Source of the DNA: a bacterium
GTDB lineage: Bacteria > Sysuimicrobiota > Sysuimicrobiia > Sysuimicrobiales > Segetimicrobiaceae
Length of the DNA: 40,620 bases
Direction: 5' to 3'
Assembly: GCA_035945995.1 (NCBI GenBank)
Contig: DASYZR010000064.1
Span: 1-40,620, forward strand
Below, in pieces: positions 9,163 to 27,304 of the stretch. A model generated the notes under the pieces. That model did not search any database and was not told the origin of the DNA. It saw nothing but the letters and a program-made list of their open reading frames with translations. Within the stretch, counting starts at the first letter, position 1. Every line of letters starts with the position of its first letter. The translations under genes and the position numbers were made by a program.

Positions 9163-9330
9163 AGCACGCGTCGGCCAGTGGCACCTCACGATCCACTGCC
9201 GCCAGGATCAACTGCGCGGTCTGGTGCGCCCGAGCACGCGTCGGCCAGTGGCACCTCACGATCCACTGCCGCCAGGATCAACTGCGCGGTCTGTTGCGCC
9301 CGAGCACGCGTCGGCCGGTGGCACCTCACG
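9163..9330. repeat. 70-bp tandem repeat, 2.4 copies, between ispG and mat
   Basis: Copies start at 9163, 9233 and 9303 with a period of exactly 70 bp; the third is a partial 28-bp copy ending just after the ispG stop codon. Copies 1 and 2 differ at a single base (9224 G versus 9294 T), and copy 3 differs at 9317. Each full unit contains a 6-bp inverted repeat (CAGTGG / CCACTG). Near identity points to recent amplification. The unit is not a multiple of 3 and the region is non-coding in my reading. It forms the whole leader region of mat. Confidence 0.9.
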
Positions 9331-19193: not shown

Positions 19194-19721
19194 CTACCCG
19201 AGCACCTCGACGGTCACCTGGGCATTCGTGTACACGCAGATGTCCGCGGCGATCCGCAGCGCCTCGCGCGCCACCGCCTCGGCGTCGAGCGACGAGTGCT
19301 GGAGCAGGGCGCGCGCGGCGGCCAGCGCGTACGGCCCGCCGGACCCGATGGCCGCCACCCCGTCGTCCGGCTCGATGATGTCGCCGCCGCCGGAGACCAC
19401 GAAGAGGTGCGCCCGGTCGGCGACCACGAGCAGCGCCTCGAGACGGCGGAGCACGCGGTCGGCCCGCCACTCCTTGGCCAGCGCCACGACCGCGCGGGGC
19501 AGGTCGCCCCGCGCCTCGCGGAGCTTGTCCTCCAGCCGGTCGTACAGGGTCAAACCATCCGCGGCCGAGCCCGCGAATCCGAGCAGCACGCCGTCGCCGG
19601 CCCGCCGGACCTTCCGCGCCCCGTGCTTGAGCACCGTCGAGCCGACGGTGACCTGCCCGTCGCCGGCCACGGCGACCCGGCCGTCGCGGCGCACGGCCAC
19701 GACGGTGGTGGAGCGGATCAG
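19194..19721 (-). CDS. hslV: ATP-dependent protease subunit HslV, probable CTG start
   Basis: The protein has about 175 residues. It is the threonine peptidase of the HslUV complex. Alignment to family members (TTIVSVRRNG in E. coli) puts the nucleophile Thr in [23 protein letters not shown] and [20 protein letters not shown] follow as expected, with [13 protein letters not shown] later. No ATG, GTG or TTG precedes the Thr within the local frame: the next in-frame candidates are far upstream inside topA. The best start is CTG at 19721, preceded by GGGGGA and overlapping the topA stop as CTGA, like the ATGA/GTGA overlaps elsewhere. That leaves a 4-residue propeptide (M-I-R-S). Starting at the GTG after the Thr would delete the active site. 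Confidence 0.88.
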
Positions 19722-21853
19722 TGACGTCCCCCGACGGGCTCCGGCTCGCGGGGTTGCGGCGCTTCCTTGTAGACGCACGTCTTGTTGCTGCAGACGATCG
19801 TGGGCGCCGCCCCCCGGCGCGCGCGCTTGGCGACCAGCATCGACCCGCAGGTGGGGCACATCCGCCCGGTGGGCCGGTCCCACGACGTGTACGTGCACGC
19901 CGGGTAGTTCGCGCAGCCGTAGAATACGCGGCCCTTCCGCGTTCGGCGTTCGACGATCTCGCCGCCGTCGAGCGGGCAGCGCACACCGATGCCGACCGGG
20001 CGCGTGTACGAGCACTCCGGGTATCCGGAACAGGCGATGAACTCGCCGTAGCGCCCGCGCCGCTTGACGAGCGGCCGCCCGCAGCGCGGACACGCCTCGC
20101 CGATCTCCTCCGGGGCCATCTCGACTTCTTCGATGGCATGCTCGGCCTTGGACAGCTCGGTCGAGAACGGGCCGTAGAAGCCCTCGAGGAGCCGGACCCA
20201 ATCCTGCGCGCCGTCCTCGACCCGGTCGAGGTTCTCCTCCATGCGGGCCGTGAACTCGACGTCCATGACGTTTGGGAAGTGCTCGACGAGCAGCGCGTTC
20301 ACGAGCATGCCGAGGTCCGTCGGGTAGAGCCGCCGGTCCTCGACCTCGACGTATCCTCGGTGCTTGATCGTCTCGATGATCGGCGCGTACGTGCTCGGCC
20401 GGCCGATGCCCCGGTCCTCGAGCGACCGCACGAGCGTGGCCTCGGTGTAGCGGGGCGGCGGCTGCGTGAAGTGCTGCTCCGGGTCGAGGCCGAGCAGGCG
20501 GAGGGTCTCGCCGACGGTGAGGTCGGGCAGCCAGCCCTCCGGCGTCTCGTCCTCCTCGGTGTCGCGCCCCTCCATGTACACGCGCAGGAATCCCGGGAAC
20601 TTCACCCGGGATCCGGTCGCCCGGAACACGTACGGCCCCGCCGTAATGTCCACCGCGAGCGTGTCCATCACCGCCGACGCCATCTGGCTGGCGACGAACC
20701 GCTCCCAGATCAGCTTGTAGACTTTGTGCTGGTCGGCCTTGAGGTGCGGCCGCACGGCGTCCGGCGTGCGATGGACGGACGTGGGCCGGATCGCCTCATG
20801 CGCCTCCTGGGCGCCGCGGCGCGACGTGTAGCGCCGCGGCTTCTCCGGCGCGTACTCGGCCCCGTAGGCGGCGACGATGTGCTCCCGCACCTGCTGCTGG
20901 GCCGCCTCGGCGATGTTGACCGAGTCGGTGCGCATGTACGTGATCAACCCGACGGTGCCCTCCGCCCCGACGTCGAGGCCCTCGTACAACTGCTGGGCCA
21001 CGACCATGGTGCGGGCGGCGGAGTATCCGAGCTTGCGGTTGGCCTCCTGCTGCAGGGTGCTCGTGGTGAACGGCGCCGCGGGGTGCCGCTGCTGATCGCG
21101 CCGCCGAATCTCCCCGACCGCATACGGCAGCCGCTCGAGCTCCTGGACGAGCGAGCGGGCCTCGGCCTCCGTCGCGATCGCGATCTTGTCCGCCCCTTTG
21201 GCGACGAGCTTCGCCGCGAACGCGGCGTCGGCGACCGGCGGTCCCCCCGCGTCGAGGCGGCTCAGACGCGCGGTGATCGACCAGTATTCAGTTGGAACGA
21301 ACGCGTCGATCTCTTTCTCACGCTCACAGATCAGCCGGACGGCGACCGATTGCACGCGGCCCGCGCTCAGACCGCCGCGGACCTTGCGCCACAACAGCGG
21401 GCTCAGCTTGTACCCCACCAGCCGATCCAGGATCCGGCGCGCCTGCTGCGCGTTCACGAGGCTCGTATCGATGTCCCGGGGGTGCGCCAGAGCGCGGCGC
21501 ACGGCGTCGCGCGTCACCTCGTGGAACTCGATCCGCTTGATCTTGGGGTTGACCGGGTGCAGGATCGTCGACAGGTGCCAGGAAATGGCCTCGCCTTCGC
21601 GGTCGGGGTCGGTCGCGAGGTAGACTGTCGACGCCTTCTTGGCCGCCGATTTCAGCTCTTTGATGACCGGACCCTTCCCCTTCGGCACCAGGTACTTGGG
21701 CGTGAACTCGTGCTCCACGTCCACCCCGAGCTGGCTGCGCGGCAGATCCTTCACATGCCCCATCGAGGCCATGACTTCATACCGCCCGTCGAGGAGCTTT
21801 TTGAGCGTCCTCGCCTTGGTCGGCGACTCTACCACGACCAGTGATCGTGCCAC
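19718..21853 (-). CDS. topA: DNA topoisomerase I
   Basis: The protein has 711 residues from GTG at 21853, with GGAGGG 5 nt upstream, so the product begins [20 protein letters not shown]. The Toprim domain follows, with [17 protein letters not shown] carrying the acidic metal triad. The nucleophile Tyr is Y306 in [12 protein letters not shown]. The C-terminal part has three zinc ribbons: CPRCG...CSGYPEC, CPLDGG...CANYPAC and CPTCG...CSNKTC. It relaxes negative supercoils. It has its own strong promoter (21993-22022). In related bacteria topA directly follows dprA; here a 4.1-kb island separates them. Confidence 0.97.
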
Positions 21854-21992
21854 TCCGTCCCTCCAGTTCCTGCGCCGGCCGCCGCGGTTCCGCACCGACA
21901 GCCGGCCGTCCGTCGGGGACGCCGTCGCCGTTCTTTATTTAATGGAAGCAACACCGGCTGCGGCGCCCTCATGGCGGAAGCTCCGATGGGCG

Positions 21993-22022
21993 ATTCTATA
22001 CCCCGACCTTTGCTATTGTCAA
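21993..22022 (-). promoter_or_regulatory. Strong sigma-70 promoter of topA-hslV-hslU
   Basis: A perfect TTGACA (22022-22017) and TAGAAT (21998-21993, 5 of 6) lie 18 bp apart on the minus strand, in a locally AT-rich patch. Transcription would start near 21986, giving a leader of about 130 nt. The -35 box lies only 13 bp from the direct repeat at 22036, so the island ends just outside this promoter. Confidence 0.8.
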
Positions 22023-22035
22023 ATTTGCGCCCTCC

Positions 22036-22076
22036 GGCTACTCTGTTGTTCCCCTTCCCCAACCGTCCGGCACGGC
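22036..22076. repeat. 41-bp direct repeat, topA-side copy (att-like)
   Basis: This copy matches 26157-26197 at 40 of 41 bases; the one difference is at 22048 (G) versus 26169 (C). The sequence reproduces the last codons and stop of dprA (it would read AVPDGWGRGTTE then stop in the dprA frame). It directly borders the topA promoter on one side and the LysR gene on the other. Outside the 41 bp the two flanks are unrelated. Confidence 0.88.
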
Positions 22077-22114
22077 CTCGATCGCCCGACGTGCAAACCA
22101 CCGGCTCGGGCACG

Positions 22115-23011
22115 TCATTTGCCGCCAACCGAGCTCATGTTGTCTACCACCGCGATGAACTTGACGACGGTAGGCGGCGGTGCGGCCGGACGCCAGACGA
22201 CCGCCAGCCGAAATCGCGGCCCGGCCGGGGTCACCCGACGGTACACGATTCCCGGGCCCGGGAAATTTTGCACCCACGCCGGGGCAAGGACGACCCCGAT
22301 CCCCGCGCTCACCAGGCTGAGGATCGAGTGCAACGGCTCCGCTTCCTGCACCACACGTGGCGCGAACCCGGCATCCTTACGGAGTGCCATGATGAGATCA
22401 TCGATGAGGCGTGTCTTCAGCGACAGGGGAAAGGCCGCGAACGGCTCGCGGGCCAGCGCGGTAAGCGGTACGCGGTGCCGCTCGGCCAGCGGGTGCCCCC
22501 TCGGAAGCGCCACGACGAGCGGGGCGTCGGCGATGATCTTCGAGCGGAAGGCAGATCCCGGGAGCGGCAGCGGGACGCAGATGACGTCGAACTGGCCGGT
22601 CTCCAATCCCTCCAACAAGCGTGGGATCGGACGCTCGTTGAAGGCGAGTTCGATCGCGGGGTAGCGGTCGCGGTAGGCCCGGAGCATCTTCGGGAACGCC
22701 GTCCACATCGCAATCTGGCTGAATCCTACCGAGAGCCGCCCGATGTGCCCCACGGCGGCTCGTTGCGCGGTGCGGACCGCCACATCCGTCTGGGCGAGCA
22801 CCCGTCGGGCCTCCTGAAGGAGTAGTCGGCCGGGCTCGGTGAGCTGCACCCGGCGCCTCGTCCGCGTGAACAGCAGCACTCCAAGATCGCGCTCCAATCG
22901 CTTGATCTGCTGGCTCAACGCCGGCTGCACGATGTGGAGCTGCGCGGCGGCACGGCCGAAGTGGAGGGTGTCGGCGACCGCCACAAAGTACCGGAGATGG
23001 CGGAGTTCCAT
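22115..23011 (-). CDS. LysR-family transcriptional regulator
   Basis: The protein has 298 residues from ATG at 23011 (MELRHLRYFVAVADTLHFGR), with AGGAG 7 nt upstream; a frame-extended ATG at 23032 is less likely. The N-terminal winged helix is typical: AAAQLHIVQPALSQQIKRLE. The substrate domain follows (LSVGFSQIAMW ... VCVPLPLP-type segments). It is divergent from the FMN reductase and EamA genes across a 97-bp gap containing a 20-bp palindrome that overlaps its own ribosome binding site. It probably represses itself and controls the divergent pair; the co-inducer is unknown. Confidence 0.92.
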   Translation of the reverse strand: MELRHLRYFVAVADTLHFGRAAAQLHIVQPALSQQIKRLERDLGVLLFTRTRRRVQLTEPGRLLLQEARRVLAQTDVAVRTAQRAAVGHIGRLSVGFSQIAMWTAFPKMLRAYRDRYPAIELAFNERPIPRLLEGLETGQFDVICVPLPLPGSAFRSKIIADAPLVVALPRGHPLAERHRVPLTALAREPFAAFPLSLKTRLIDDLIMALRKDAGFAPRVVQEAEPLHSILSLVSAGIGVVLAPAWVQNFPGPGIVYRRVTPAGPRFRLAVVWRPAAPPPTVVKFIAVVDNMSSVGGK

Positions 23012-23022
23012 AGAATCACTCC

Positions 23023-23042
23023 TGATGATCAATTGGTCATCA
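23023..23042. promoter_or_regulatory. Probable LysR operator palindrome
   Basis: TGATGATCAATTGGTCATCA is a 20-bp palindrome with one mismatched pair. It contains the T-N11-A core expected of LysR sites. It sits between the divergent genes and touches the lysR Shine-Dalgarno, which suits autoregulation. Confidence 0.6.
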
Positions 23043-23049
23043 TTTTGTA

Positions 23050-23079
23050 TTGGACGGTGATCAGGGGCGTCCCTATGAT
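23050..23079 (+). promoter_or_regulatory. Possible promoter of the FMN reductase-exporter pair
   Basis: TTGGAC (23050-23055) and TATGAT (23074-23079, 5 of 6) are 18 bp apart. The -35 box is poor, as expected for an activator-dependent promoter next to the LysR site. The start codon follows 30 bp after the -10. Confidence 0.45.
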
Positions 23080-23108
23080 ATCGGTGAGAACCGACACGGA
23101 GAGGTTCC

Positions 23109-23681
23109 GTGACTTCGAAGCGACTGCGGATTCTCGGAATTCCCGGCAGCCTGCGACGCCGTTCCTACAATCGCGGACTGCTCGAGGCGGCGGCCGAGCT
23201 TGCGCCCGATGGAATGGAGGTCGAGATCACCGACCTTGCATCGATCCCTTTGTACAATGCCGACGTCGAGGACGAGGGCGTACCGCCGTCCGTGCAGACG
23301 TTTCGGGCGCAAATTGCGGCGGCGGATGGCTTGCTCCTCGCCACCCCGGAATACAATCATATGCTGCCCGGAGTGCTCAAAAACGCCATCGACTGGGCCA
23401 CGGGGGACGGCAGGGGCAAAAACCCGCTCCAGGGCAAGCCCGCCGCGGTCATGGGCGCCTCAAGTGGAATCGTGGGGACCGCGCGCGCCCAGCTCGCGCT
23501 CCGCCAAGTCCTCGCGTCGACCGATTGCTACGTGCTGCTCCCCAACCCCCAAATCCTCGTCGGCGGCGCGAAAGACAGGTTCGACCCGGATGGCCGTCTT
23601 ACAGATGAACCAACGCGCAAGCGGATCCGGTTGCTGCTCAAGGTCTTTCGCGCATGGATCGATCGTCTCCGGCCGCGGTAG
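23109..23681 (+). CDS. NADPH-dependent FMN reductase family protein
   Basis: The protein has 190 residues and starts with GTG at 23109, with GGAGAGG upstream. It has the flavodoxin-like fold of the SsuE/ChrR/azoreductase group (FMN_red). The FMN phosphate loop is GIPGSLRRRSYNRGLLEAA. The other signature is LLLATPEYNHMLPGVLKNAI followed by DWA. GASSGIVGTARAQLALRQVL lies where the family has its GxxGG/R region. It probably reduces flavin, quinone, chromate or azo compounds with NAD(P)H. It is the first plus-strand gene behind the LysR operator and is followed after 55 bp by an exporter gene, so it may serve detoxification of a small compound. Substrate unknown. Confidence 0.85.
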   Translation: MTSKRLRILGIPGSLRRRSYNRGLLEAAAELAPDGMEVEITDLASIPLYNADVEDEGVPPSVQTFRAQIAAADGLLLATPEYNHMLPGVLKNAIDWATGDGRGKNPLQGKPAAVMGASSGIVGTARAQLALRQVLASTDCYVLLPNPQILVGGAKDRFDPDGRLTDEPTRKRIRLLLKVFRAWIDRLRPR

Positions 23682-23736
23682 CGTGGCACGAGCGGGTAAT
23701 CGCCGCGATGGCGATGGAGCCGCTACCTGCGGTGCG

Positions 23737-24639
23737 GTGAGTGGCAGGACATCGGCCCTGAACCATCGCGATATGGTGCTGGCTGCTCTGGCTTCGGTGA
23801 TCTGGGGCCTCGCATTCGTCGCCGCCAAGTTCGGACTGGAAAGCTTCTCCCCCCCGCAGTTAACGGCAGCCAGGTTCCTGATCGCGAGCCTCCCCGTTTT
23901 TCTGGTGCCGCGGCCGAACATCCCGTGGTGGTCGATCGCGCTGATCGGGATGACACTGTTCGCCGGGCAGTTCCTGTTGCTGTTCTTCGCCTACACTCAA
24001 GGGCTGGCCCCGGGCCTCGCCTCGGTCACCCAGCAGACGCAGGTGTTTTTCACGGTGCTGCTCGCCGCCGTATTCCTTCGCGATGTCCCGAACCGCAGAC
24101 AGTGCTTGGGCATGACGATCGCGTTCACGGGCCTCGTACTGATCGCCCTGACCATCGGATCGGACCTCACGCTCGCAGCGCTCGGCCTCGCGCTCGGGGG
24201 CGCCTTCAGTTGGGCCGTCGGGAACGTCCTGGTCAAGCGCACCGCCGACGTTCCTATGTTTCCCTTGATCGTGTGGTGCAGCCTGATTCCGCCGTTGCCC
24301 GCGATCGTTGTGTCGGCGGTCTACGATCGGCGCGTGTCGGTGTGGGAGGCGGCGGCGGGCGCTTCCTGGCTGAGCATCGGGGCCGCGGTTTACCTCGGAA
24401 CGATGGCCACCGTCGTCGCCTACGGGATCTGGGGTCATTTGCTCCAACGCTACCCGGCCGGGGTCGTCGCGCCGTTCGCCCTTCTGGCACCGTGCACCGG
24501 GATCGTGGCATCCGCCGTGACCTTCGGCGAGGTGTTTAGTCCGACGCGCTACGCCGGCATGGCCCTGATCCTTGCGGGTCTCGCTGTGATCGTCCGGCCC
24601 GCGGGTGGCACGCCCGCCGATGGACGGGGCGTGGCGTGA
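23737..24639 (+). CDS. EamA-family (DMT superfamily) exporter
   Basis: The frame has 300 residues from GTG at 23737. An ATG at 23773 is an alternative, but the longer form gives the usual short polar lead before the first helix. Two EamA repeats are visible: ASVIWGLAFVAAKFGLESFS at the start of repeat 1 and LGLALGGAFSWAVGNVLVKR at the start of repeat 2. Ten hydrophobic helices are expected; YAGMALILAGLAVIVRP closes the protein. DMT exporters of this type move amino acids, metabolites or drugs. Being linked to the FMN reductase and LysR suggests export of a related compound. The frame also runs upstream into the reductase gene, but that part is a shadow. Confidence 0.88.
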   Translation: MSGRTSALNHRDMVLAALASVIWGLAFVAAKFGLESFSPPQLTAARFLIASLPVFLVPRPNIPWWSIALIGMTLFAGQFLLLFFAYTQGLAPGLASVTQQTQVFFTVLLAAVFLRDVPNRRQCLGMTIAFTGLVLIALTIGSDLTLAALGLALGGAFSWAVGNVLVKRTADVPMFPLIVWCSLIPPLPAIVVSAVYDRRVSVWEAAAGASWLSIGAAVYLGTMATVVAYGIWGHLLQRYPAGVVAPFALLAPCTGIVASAVTFGEVFSPTRYAGMALILAGLAVIVRPAGGTPADGRGVA

Positions 24640-24749
24640 CGACGGCCTTGCTTCCCCCGGGGTTAGCGGATACCACGGCCCAGAACGGGAGAGAATAGGA
24701 TTGCCTTCTGGCCGATAGCCATCGCCTGGAGCCTTGCAGCGGCGGTTCG

Positions 24750-25034
24750 GAGTGCGGGCGTTTGCTCCGTCGGCTTGGACGTAGGCGGCCGTGGGGTGGT
24801 TCACACGGGCTACACGAAGCGGCGCCAGCTCGATGTCGACGGCGACGAGCGCGATGCCGGGGAATCGCGTTGCCAGTTGCGCCATCATGGCTCCCACGCC
24901 GCTACCGAGGTCGAGAACACGGTCTGCCGGCCGGATCTGCACGTCTCCCAGGTAAAACTCGCGACAAATGGCGCCTGAAACTCAAGTCGCGCCGCCTCGC
25001 GAGAATCTATCTTCCCGTGGATATACTCATGCAT
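24750..25034 (-). pseudogene. SAM-dependent methyltransferase, N-terminal remnant with frameshift
   Basis: From ATG at 25034 the frame reads MHEYIHGKIDSREAARLEFQ-APF, a typical methyltransferase N-terminus. It then shifts by one base near 24975-24990 and continues REFYLGDVQIRPADRVLDLG, followed by motif I (SGVGAMMAQLATRFP) and motif II-like VAVDIELAPLRVARVN. Homology stops after YVQADGANAR near 24755, so the C-terminal half is absent. No ribosome binding site is evident. The remainder of the 24640-25098 gap, 24640-24749, shows no gene. Confidence 0.7.
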
Positions 25035-25098
25035 GCGCTAGAGCGATGGCCGCTGTTTGTTGGCAGTAATACACGGACCGTCCGATGAACCTGACGCG

Positions 25099-25901
25099 CT
25101 AATGGCCGGCGTGAGCATCGAGCGGGCCGTAGACGGCTGTGCGCGGAAAGAAGGCGTACCATGCAAACCAGTACGTCAGAAATCCGCCGACTCGGGGCGC
25201 ACGACGTCCGTCGGCCGCCACAGCGGGCAGTACGTGAGCGCCACCGGCACGCCGCCGACAGTATCGTTCACCAGTTCGTGCCAGTCCATGATCCGAAGGG
25301 GGTACGCGCGCGCGTCGCCGCCGACAGCCAGCCCGAACACCGGCTCATTGGGCGTGAGATACGTCGCCATGTCGGCCGCGACCACCCGGGGATCCTCGAG
25401 GACGGGAATGCCGTCGACCGTGACGCCACCCCACTGTATCTCCTCGACGCTTACGCGGGCGGGGGCGCCGTCGCGCAAGAAGGTTTCGAACCGTGGATCG
25501 ATCCGTCCAAGTAGCCGGCCCTTCCACCCGACGAATCCCGGTGGCGGCGTGTTCGATGTCCCGCCGTACCACTCGACCCAGGCGATCCAGTCGTCGCCAT
25601 ACGCCAGGCCGGTAAGCCGGCGCAGCGCGGCGACGATCGCCCCGTCATCGAGATCTCGCGCGATACCCGCCTGACTCGCGCGGAGCAACTCGATCAGCAC
25701 GCCGACGTAACTGACGTCACGGGTGCGGACGATCTGGTCAAGCGCGTCGCGTCCCGGTGCCCCTCCGGCGGTCAGCGCATCCATGAGCGGGCGCGCCTCG
25801 GATTTTCGCGGCGAGGCCGCGACCGCCGGTAGGAGAACACCGAGCACGAGCACCGTCAAGACGGTCAGCCGGAGCCGGCGCACTCTCACGCGAACCCGCA
25901 C
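25099..25901 (-). pseudogene. DUF3179 family protein, internally deleted and frameshifted
   Basis: The 5' part (25901 to 25176, 241 codons) has a signal-like N-terminus (LRLTVLTVLVLGVLLPAVAA) and then DUF3179 features: DDWIAWVEWYGG, FLRDGAPARVSVEEIQWGGV, and ARAYPLRIMDWHELVNDTVG followed by VALTYCPL. The family should continue CPLCG...; here TYCPLW runs to an early TGA at 25176. A second frame of the same strand reads GGFLTYWFAWYAFFPRTAVY and GPLDAHAGH to a TAG at 25099, which resembles the normal C-terminus. So the middle of the gene is missing and the tail is shifted. A functional product is unlikely. The 25902-26156 stretch upstream holds no recognisable gene. Confidence 0.65.
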
Positions 25902-26156
25902 TCGCCTTCGGCGATCGTCAGACGCTCGTCAATGATTGCGGCCATCGTGTTTCCGGTTTTCCGTGTTCTAGATCAGACGTGGCGCATGGCGACGCACAAG
26001 ACCAACGCGATGGGGCCGACCCTGCCTTCGGCGCCGGCAACGCGAATTCCCAACTTGGCAACTTGACCGTCGTTTCCGCGTGCGCTGTTCTGCTTCCCGA
26101 GGCGGTGTAAGTGGACCTCGCCGGGCCCGCAGGGATCCACGATTTCCGCTCCGTCG

Positions 26157-26197
26157 GGCTACTCTGTTCTTCCCCTTCCCCAACCGTCCGGCACGGC
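26157..26197. repeat. 41-bp direct repeat, dprA-side copy (att-like)
   Basis: This copy is the 3' end of dprA (TAG stop at 26159-26161) and repeats 22036-22076 with one mismatch. It marks the right border of the island. See the island entry for interpretation. Confidence 0.88.
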
Positions 26198-27304
26198 GGT
26201 CTTGATGTACAGACCGCCCGCCGTCCGCCGGATGATCCCGCGCAGTTCAAGCGCCACGAGCGCCGCCGCGGCCACCGGCACGCTCAGACCGGCCGATGCC
26301 GCCACGCCGTCGATCGACCGGGCATCGCCGTCATCCAGCGCGGCGACTAGGCGGCGCTCGGGGGGCGTGAGATCCGCCGCCGGCCCCGGCTCGTGCGCCA
26401 CGCCGGGCCGGTCCGGGTCGCCTCCAGGGCGGCCGGCCCCGAGGCCGAGCACCGCCAAAACGTCGTCCGGGGCGGCGACGACCCGGGCGCCCGCGGCGAG
26501 CAACCGGTGTGGTCCTCGACTGCCGCGCGCGTAGACGTTTCCGGGCACCGCGAACAGAACGCGTCCCTGCGCCTGCGCCTGGCGCGCCGTGATCATGGCC
26601 CCGCTGTCCACGTCGCCTTCAACGACCACGACCGCGTCCGCGAGCCCGCTGATGAGCCGGTTCCGCGCGGGAAACGCCCGCGGCCCGGGCGCGGCTCCCA
26701 TCGGGGCTTCGGCCACGAGGGCGCCGCGCCTCACCATGGCCTCCATCAACGACCGGTGCTCCGGCGGGTACATGACGTCGACGCCGCATCCGAGTACCCC
26801 GACCGTCGACCCGCCGATCCGCACGACGGCCCGGTGAACGACGCCGTCGATTCCCCGGGCCAGGCCGCTCACCACGGTTACGCCGTGCTCGGCGAGCGCC
26901 GCTCCGAGGCGTTCGGCGACACCGAGGCCATAGGGCGTCGCGCGGCGGGTCCCGACGATGGCGACCGCGGGCCGGTCGTTGCGCCAGACCCCGCGGACGT
27001 ATAACACCGGTGGAGACGCGGGAATTCCGCGCAGCCGTCCGGGGTATCCCGCATCGAGCCACGTGACGATGCGTGCACCGCAGTCCGCGGCACGCCGCAG
27101 CATCCGATCCACGCCGTTCGCGTCGCGCGCCTCGGCGATCGCCTCTGCGATGGCGGCGCCCAGGCCCGGCACGTCGACAAGCGCGGCCCTCGGCGCCGCC
27201 CACGCGGCCGCCGCCGACCCAAAGTACTCGACCAGCCGGCCGATCCGGACTCCGCCGAGTCCCGGCACGAGCGAGAGGGCCAGCAGGCACCGGCGCTCGT
27301 CCAC
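26159..27304 (-). CDS. dprA: DNA processing protein DprA
   Basis: The protein has 381 residues from GTG at 27304 with GGAG 9 nt upstream; the frame continues past it only as a shadow of comF. DprA loads RecA on single-stranded DNA during transformation. An N-terminal helix-hairpin-helix region (LVPGLGGVRIGRLVEYFG, VDVPGLGAAIAEAI) precedes the Rossmann fold, with VAIVGTRRATPYGLGVAERL, VVSGLARGIDGVVHRA, LGCGVDVMYPPEH and FPARNRLISGLADAVVVVEG. A C-terminal winged-helix-like domain follows. The last dozen codons lie in the 41-bp repeat, so an island insertion may have replaced the original 3' end (TAVPDGWGRGRTE here). Confidence 0.94.
   Translation of the reverse strand: MDERRCLLALSLVPGLGGVRIGRLVEYFGSAAAAWAAPRAALVDVPGLGAAIAEAIAEARDANGVDRMLRRAADCGARIVTWLDAGYPGRLRGIPASPPVLYVRGVWRNDRPAVAIVGTRRATPYGLGVAERLGAALAEHGVTVVSGLARGIDGVVHRAVVRIGGSTVGVLGCGVDVMYPPEHRSLMEAMVRRGALVAEAPMGAAPGPRAFPARNRLISGLADAVVVVEGDVDSGAMITARQAQAQGRVLFAVPGNVYARGSRGPHRLLAAGARVVAAPDDVLAVLGLGAGRPGGDPDRPGVAHEPGPAADLTPPERRLVAALDDGDARSIDGVAASAGLSVPVAAAALVALELRGIIRRTAGGLYIKTAVPDGWGRGRTE

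Follow-up and report, generated by a model that had tools for sequence, protein, structure and literature searches.

A 4.1-kb insertion between dprA and topA in a bacterium of the Segetimicrobiaceae, bordered by direct repeats that include the 3′ end of dprA

Integrative elements at gene ends

Cis-mobilizable elements (CIMEs), which are decayed ICEs or IMEs, are by definition devoid of an integrase and retain the attL and attR sites (PMC5704250). Islands found at rpsI are bordered by imperfect repeats and have a 61-bp core att site at the 3′ end of the gene (PMC5341023). The locus analyzed here lies in a window of 40,620 nucleotides, which corresponds to a complete contig (G000:C64) in a genome of 4.15 Mb, and it is similar to a CIME in that the cargo is placed between attL/attR-like repeats at a gene end in the absence of integrase and transfer genes. 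It is different from a CIME in that no related autonomous element is known for the island, the att sites are putative, and the tail of the host gene is unconserved. As in McRImecD at rpsI, the imperfect direct repeats take in the 3′ end of a gene, stop codon included, and the cargo consists of accessory genes. However, the rpsI islands carry a tyrosine integrase, and one of them excises as a circle; moreover, their site in rpsI is conserved between genera (PMC5341023), in contrast to the dprA tail.

With regard to dprA itself, the gene has been described as cargo of an rpsI island (PMC5341023), and a prophage study deals with the control of DprA levels, not with integration at dprA (PMC12637031). 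Our searches of the open-access literature found no islands or prophages integrated at dprA, which is in agreement with a preliminary description of this DNA, where no described att site at dprA was known; absence from this literature is no proof of novelty. Apparently, the locus is a genomic island of an ordinary kind, for which an integration site at dprA is unreported. For a lineage that is apparently uncultured, it adds a candidate integration site beside a competence gene, together with a clear pair of insertion and empty site. As it stands, this concerns a single decayed island from a single genome. If the integration was site-specific, mobile DNA would shape the tail of DprA, the loader of imported DNA for recombination.

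The empty site and the border repeats

The arrangement of the locus is summarized in Table 1. In all nine family members in which a single contig carries both genes, dprA is directly followed by topA, without the island and without the repeat, in the gene order comM, comF, dprA, then topA, hslV, and hslU. These testable relatives are two members of the same genus (G001 and G002) and seven of the same family (G003, G005, and G007 to G011), none of which is conspecific. Their dprA-topA gap is approximately 24–178 bp, or 266 bp in the fragmentary G011, where it was counted from the point at which the dprA alignment ends; among the family members tested, a gap of 4.3 kb is found in the window only. 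Because all nine relatives, including both congeners, have dprA directly before topA, it is well supported by these sequence comparisons that about 4.1 kb was inserted between the two genes in this lineage. The preliminary description had anticipated that an empty site with one 41-bp copy in close relatives would support integration; the empty site is present and argues for an insertion, and no copy of the repeat is found in it.

Table 1. Features of the dprA-topA region (positions in the window)
Feature	Position	Strand	Basis or remark
topA (host)	19718..21856	-	comparison with relatives
topA promoter, TTGACA-18-TAGAAT	21993..22022	-	conserved in both congeners
Extended left repeat	22027..22076	.	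50 nt, 92% identical to 26148-26197
Left direct repeat, attL/attR-like	22036..22076	-	partial dprA 3′-end copy encoding VPDGWGRGTTE* in frame
Inserted segment, ~4.07 kb	22077..26147	.	absent between dprA and topA in nine testable family members
LysR-type regulator, intact	22115..23032	-	Pfam; AlsR/HcaR-like, below NCBIfam cut-offs
TGATGATCAATTGGTCATCA, operator-like near-palindrome, 20 bp (18/20)	23023..23042	.	between divergent genes
NADPH-dependent FMN reductase, intact	23109..23681	+	Pfam FMN_red
EamA transporter, intact	23740..24639	+	Pfam; family-typical gene
Class I methyltransferase remnant	24690..24960	-	88 aa, SAM motif only
DUF3179 gene, truncated at 3′ part	25176..25901	-	241 aa; profile positions 2-67 of 292
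Extended right repeat	26148..26197	.	partner of 22027-22076
Right direct repeat	26157..26197	-	current dprA 3′ end, VPDGWGRGRTE*
dprA (host)	26159..27304	-	Pfam and comparison with relatives

G004 and G006 were left out of the count because topA is present and dprA was not found. In these two genomes (~96–97% complete), a genome-wide search gave no DprA match and topA is preceded by other genes, which could reflect a loss of dprA. Other families of the order vary: the dprA-topA gap is short in many, and 2.4–14.6 kb of other sequence occupies the interval in family f4 (G028 and G031), including an ABC-transporter-like ATPase gene in G028. The f4 gaps were rejected as the same insertion and judged to be family-level gene order.

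Alignment of the border sequences reproduces the 41-bp direct repeats, with one mismatch, that the preliminary description had reported, and also the distance of 13 bp between the left copy and the -35 box of topA (TTGACA, 22017-22022). The ungapped match extends to 46 identical positions of 50, and with two 1-nt gaps to approximately 56 nt, growing towards the topA promoter. The local score of the pair is 83, whereas none of 40 dinucleotide-shuffled comparisons of 5 kb with 5 kb scored above 40. Only two copies of the repeat are present in the 4.15-Mb genome, both at the borders, and a scattered intergenic repeat family, which had been named as a finding that would speak against an island, is thereby ruled out.

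The contig probably comes from a metagenome assembly, and the fragmented state of the genome (181 contigs, 2.6% contamination), together with a run of 28 identical bases that is common to both junction copies, could be taken as signs of a chimeric assembly. Nevertheless, several bases distinguish the two repeat copies, and a single contig carries both junctions, correctly flanked by dprA and topA. In addition, of the genomes searched, those of the same family contain the best relatives of the cargo. A chimera is thus an unlikely origin of the locus, to which we assign only a slight probability.

The stop codon of dprA (TAG on the minus strand) is located at 26159-26161, and therefore the right copy forms the present 3′ end of the gene. 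The earlier statement that this copy is the true end holds in this sense, whereas it is only a candidate for the ancestral end, the tail being missing in the congeners. When the flanks are joined with one repeat copy, an uninterrupted dprA frame is obtained, ending just upstream of the topA promoter AAATTTGACA...TATAGAATC, which is common to the window and both congeners. As counted from the sequences, 28 nt separate GGLY, the conserved end of DprA, from AAATTTGACA in the -35 region in both congeners, versus 59 nt in the joined site. The joined site is thus 31 nt longer and does not simply correspond to the ancestral site. The VPDGWGRG(R/T)TE tail is missing from DprA of both congeners, whose empty junctions contain no copy of the repeat, and the tail is unconserved across the family.

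Given the short junction and the absence of the tail in the congeners, either a longer native tail was duplicated or the repeat arrived with the insert. In the latter case, the repeat may have been carried by the element and not be a native dprA end: as terminal direct repeats of the insert, or as a recombined repeat, it would have replaced a short native tail, and the present end of dprA would be acquired. The 28-nt spacing and the tailless DprA of the congeners favor this origin, but the tail varies across the family, which makes a longer native tail possible, and no other copy of the repeat exists in the genome. We regard an acquired dprA end as improbable.

Cargo genes and their relatives

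The cargo had been described from the sequence as a LysR/FMN reductase/EamA cassette with two broken genes, and both parts of the description are upheld. Pfam identifies LysR, FMN_red, and EamA domains, and the broken genes are the methyltransferase fragment and the DUF3179 gene, whose 241 aa compare with 507 aa in an intact homologue of G003 (56% identity). The near-palindrome TGATGATCAATTGGTCATCA reaches into the first codons when LysR is read as its longest ORF; a start at ATG-MELRHLRYF is likelier. A sigma-70-like promoter match is also located between the divergent LysR and FMN reductase-EamA genes. All three genes are intact and may still work.

The G+C content of the insert is 62–68%, compared to 70–77% in most flanking genes and 69% in topA; the third-position G+C (76–84% in the insert versus 82–97% in the flanking host genes) is a weak signal. 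Homologues of the FMN reductase are found in G003 (69%) and G006 (64%), and those of EamA in G001, G006, G009, and G011 (68–73%) at other loci, where the nucleotide similarity is confined to the EamA gene. The homologues of FMN reductase, EamA, and DUF3179 occupy scattered, separate loci in the same family and are never found together. For this reason, the relocation of one native block was rejected, and the island looks as if it was assembled from pieces of the gene pool of the family instead of being moved as one block.

Recombinase search and origin of the duplication

No recombinase ORF was found in 22077-26147 by the ORF list and Pfam, as the preliminary description had noted. Across the genome, Phage_integrase gave seven hits and resolvase two (one weak and broken); the integrases are on other contigs, and the sequence fetched around these genomic integrases contains no repeat-like site (local scores of 19–25 versus 83 for the real pair). 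A transposon or IS insertion was ruled out by the lack of a transposase ORF and of terminal inverted repeats; the inner ends of the insert match each other in inverted orientation over 16 nt at best (score 22), which is no better than unrelated matches. A tRNA or tmRNA target was likewise ruled out, as none is present in the window, and no Rfam element was found there. In viral contigs, neither an exact 38-nt pattern from the repeat nor relatives of EamA were detected. In plasmids, only gene-level matches, mostly 67–74%, were obtained, and the island as such was rejected as a plasmid-borne unit.

The duplicated gene end had been interpreted as a trace of site-specific integration, with either a degraded island or a non-autonomous element using an unknown recombinase as the outcome. 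The insertion stands, and the interpretation is plausible, but no integrase accompanies a matching site and the putative attB falls in a variable part of dprA. Gene-end integrases as a rule target conserved ends, and the unconserved dprA tail is therefore the weakest point of a site-specific reading. A degraded island fits the two truncated gene remnants. Nothing positive was found for the non-autonomous element: the genome has no second copy of it, and the viral contigs gave no exact match. We consider it very unlikely that the dprA 3′ end is a genuine attachment site at which a small non-autonomous element, mobilized in trans by a recombinase, integrates and remodels the C-terminal tail of DprA.

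A different route involves no recombinase at all, since fill-in and end joining at a break can capture arbitrary DNA and leave a target duplication around it. In the present case, the 3′ end of dprA would have suffered a staggered double-strand break whose filling-in duplicated ~50 bp, and foreign or relocated fragments would have been end-joined, without any att site or integrase having ever been involved. This is a live rival because the genome encodes Ku (PF02735, E 1.4e-51), although Ku by itself does not demonstrate active end joining. The patchwork insert with relatives of its pieces at separate loci, the lack of an integrase, the unconserved target sequence, and an adjoining second rearrangement scar, an inverted internal dprA copy of 31–35 nt in the topA leader, all speak for such a capture. 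On the other hand, a fill-in duplication of 41–56 bp is long, and the cargo includes an organized transcription unit, an intact and regulated cassette that looks selected, unlike random debris. Taken together, we judge break capture to be possible but rather unlikely.

The insertion, the duplication, the mosaic cargo, and the gene remnants are shown at the level of sequence comparison, and their best and most economical explanation, in which we have moderate confidence, is a CIME-like island that lost its integrase and kept attL and attR. In this CIME-like scenario, a small genomic island would have recombined into the dprA-topA junction, using a site that overlaps the 3′ end of dprA, leaving attL-/attR-like direct repeats of 41–56 bp, one of which now forms the end of dprA. 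The duplication would have been made by a tyrosine recombinase, whose gene was presumably once inside the island. Subsequent decay would have truncated two cargo genes and deleted any integrase, and the product would be a relic with one intact LysR-controlled FMN reductase/EamA unit. The direct repeats found at the borders only, the empty junction in nine of nine relatives, and the clean joined dprA frame favor this explanation, as do the lower G+C content of the insert, the truncated genes, and the separate loci of the cargo homologues. The absence of a recombinase from the insert, and of a matching site from the sequence fetched around the genomic integrases, argues against it, as do a putative attB that lies in the unconserved dprA tail and is absent from the congeners and a joined site that is longer than the junction of both congeners.

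Several further rearrangements or repeats were observed in the window. A tandem repeat of 70 bp (2.4 copies, 97% matches) is located at 9163-9330, and the surrounding stretch is unalignable to either congener. An internal dprA sequence (26697-26727) occurs inverted in the topA leader (21960-21990), with 90% identity over 31 nt, or approximately 35 nt with a gap. Its score of 48 compares with a mean of 22.9 (sd 3.2, maximum 36) in 300 shuffles, and no such piece was seen in the topA leaders of the congeners. This inverted scrap suggests that the dprA-topA junction was rearranged at least once more. The same leader contains a quasi-palindromic element (GCCGTTnTTTAT..ATGGAAGYAACA, 21915-21965), which aligns best to that of the congener G002 in the opposite orientation.
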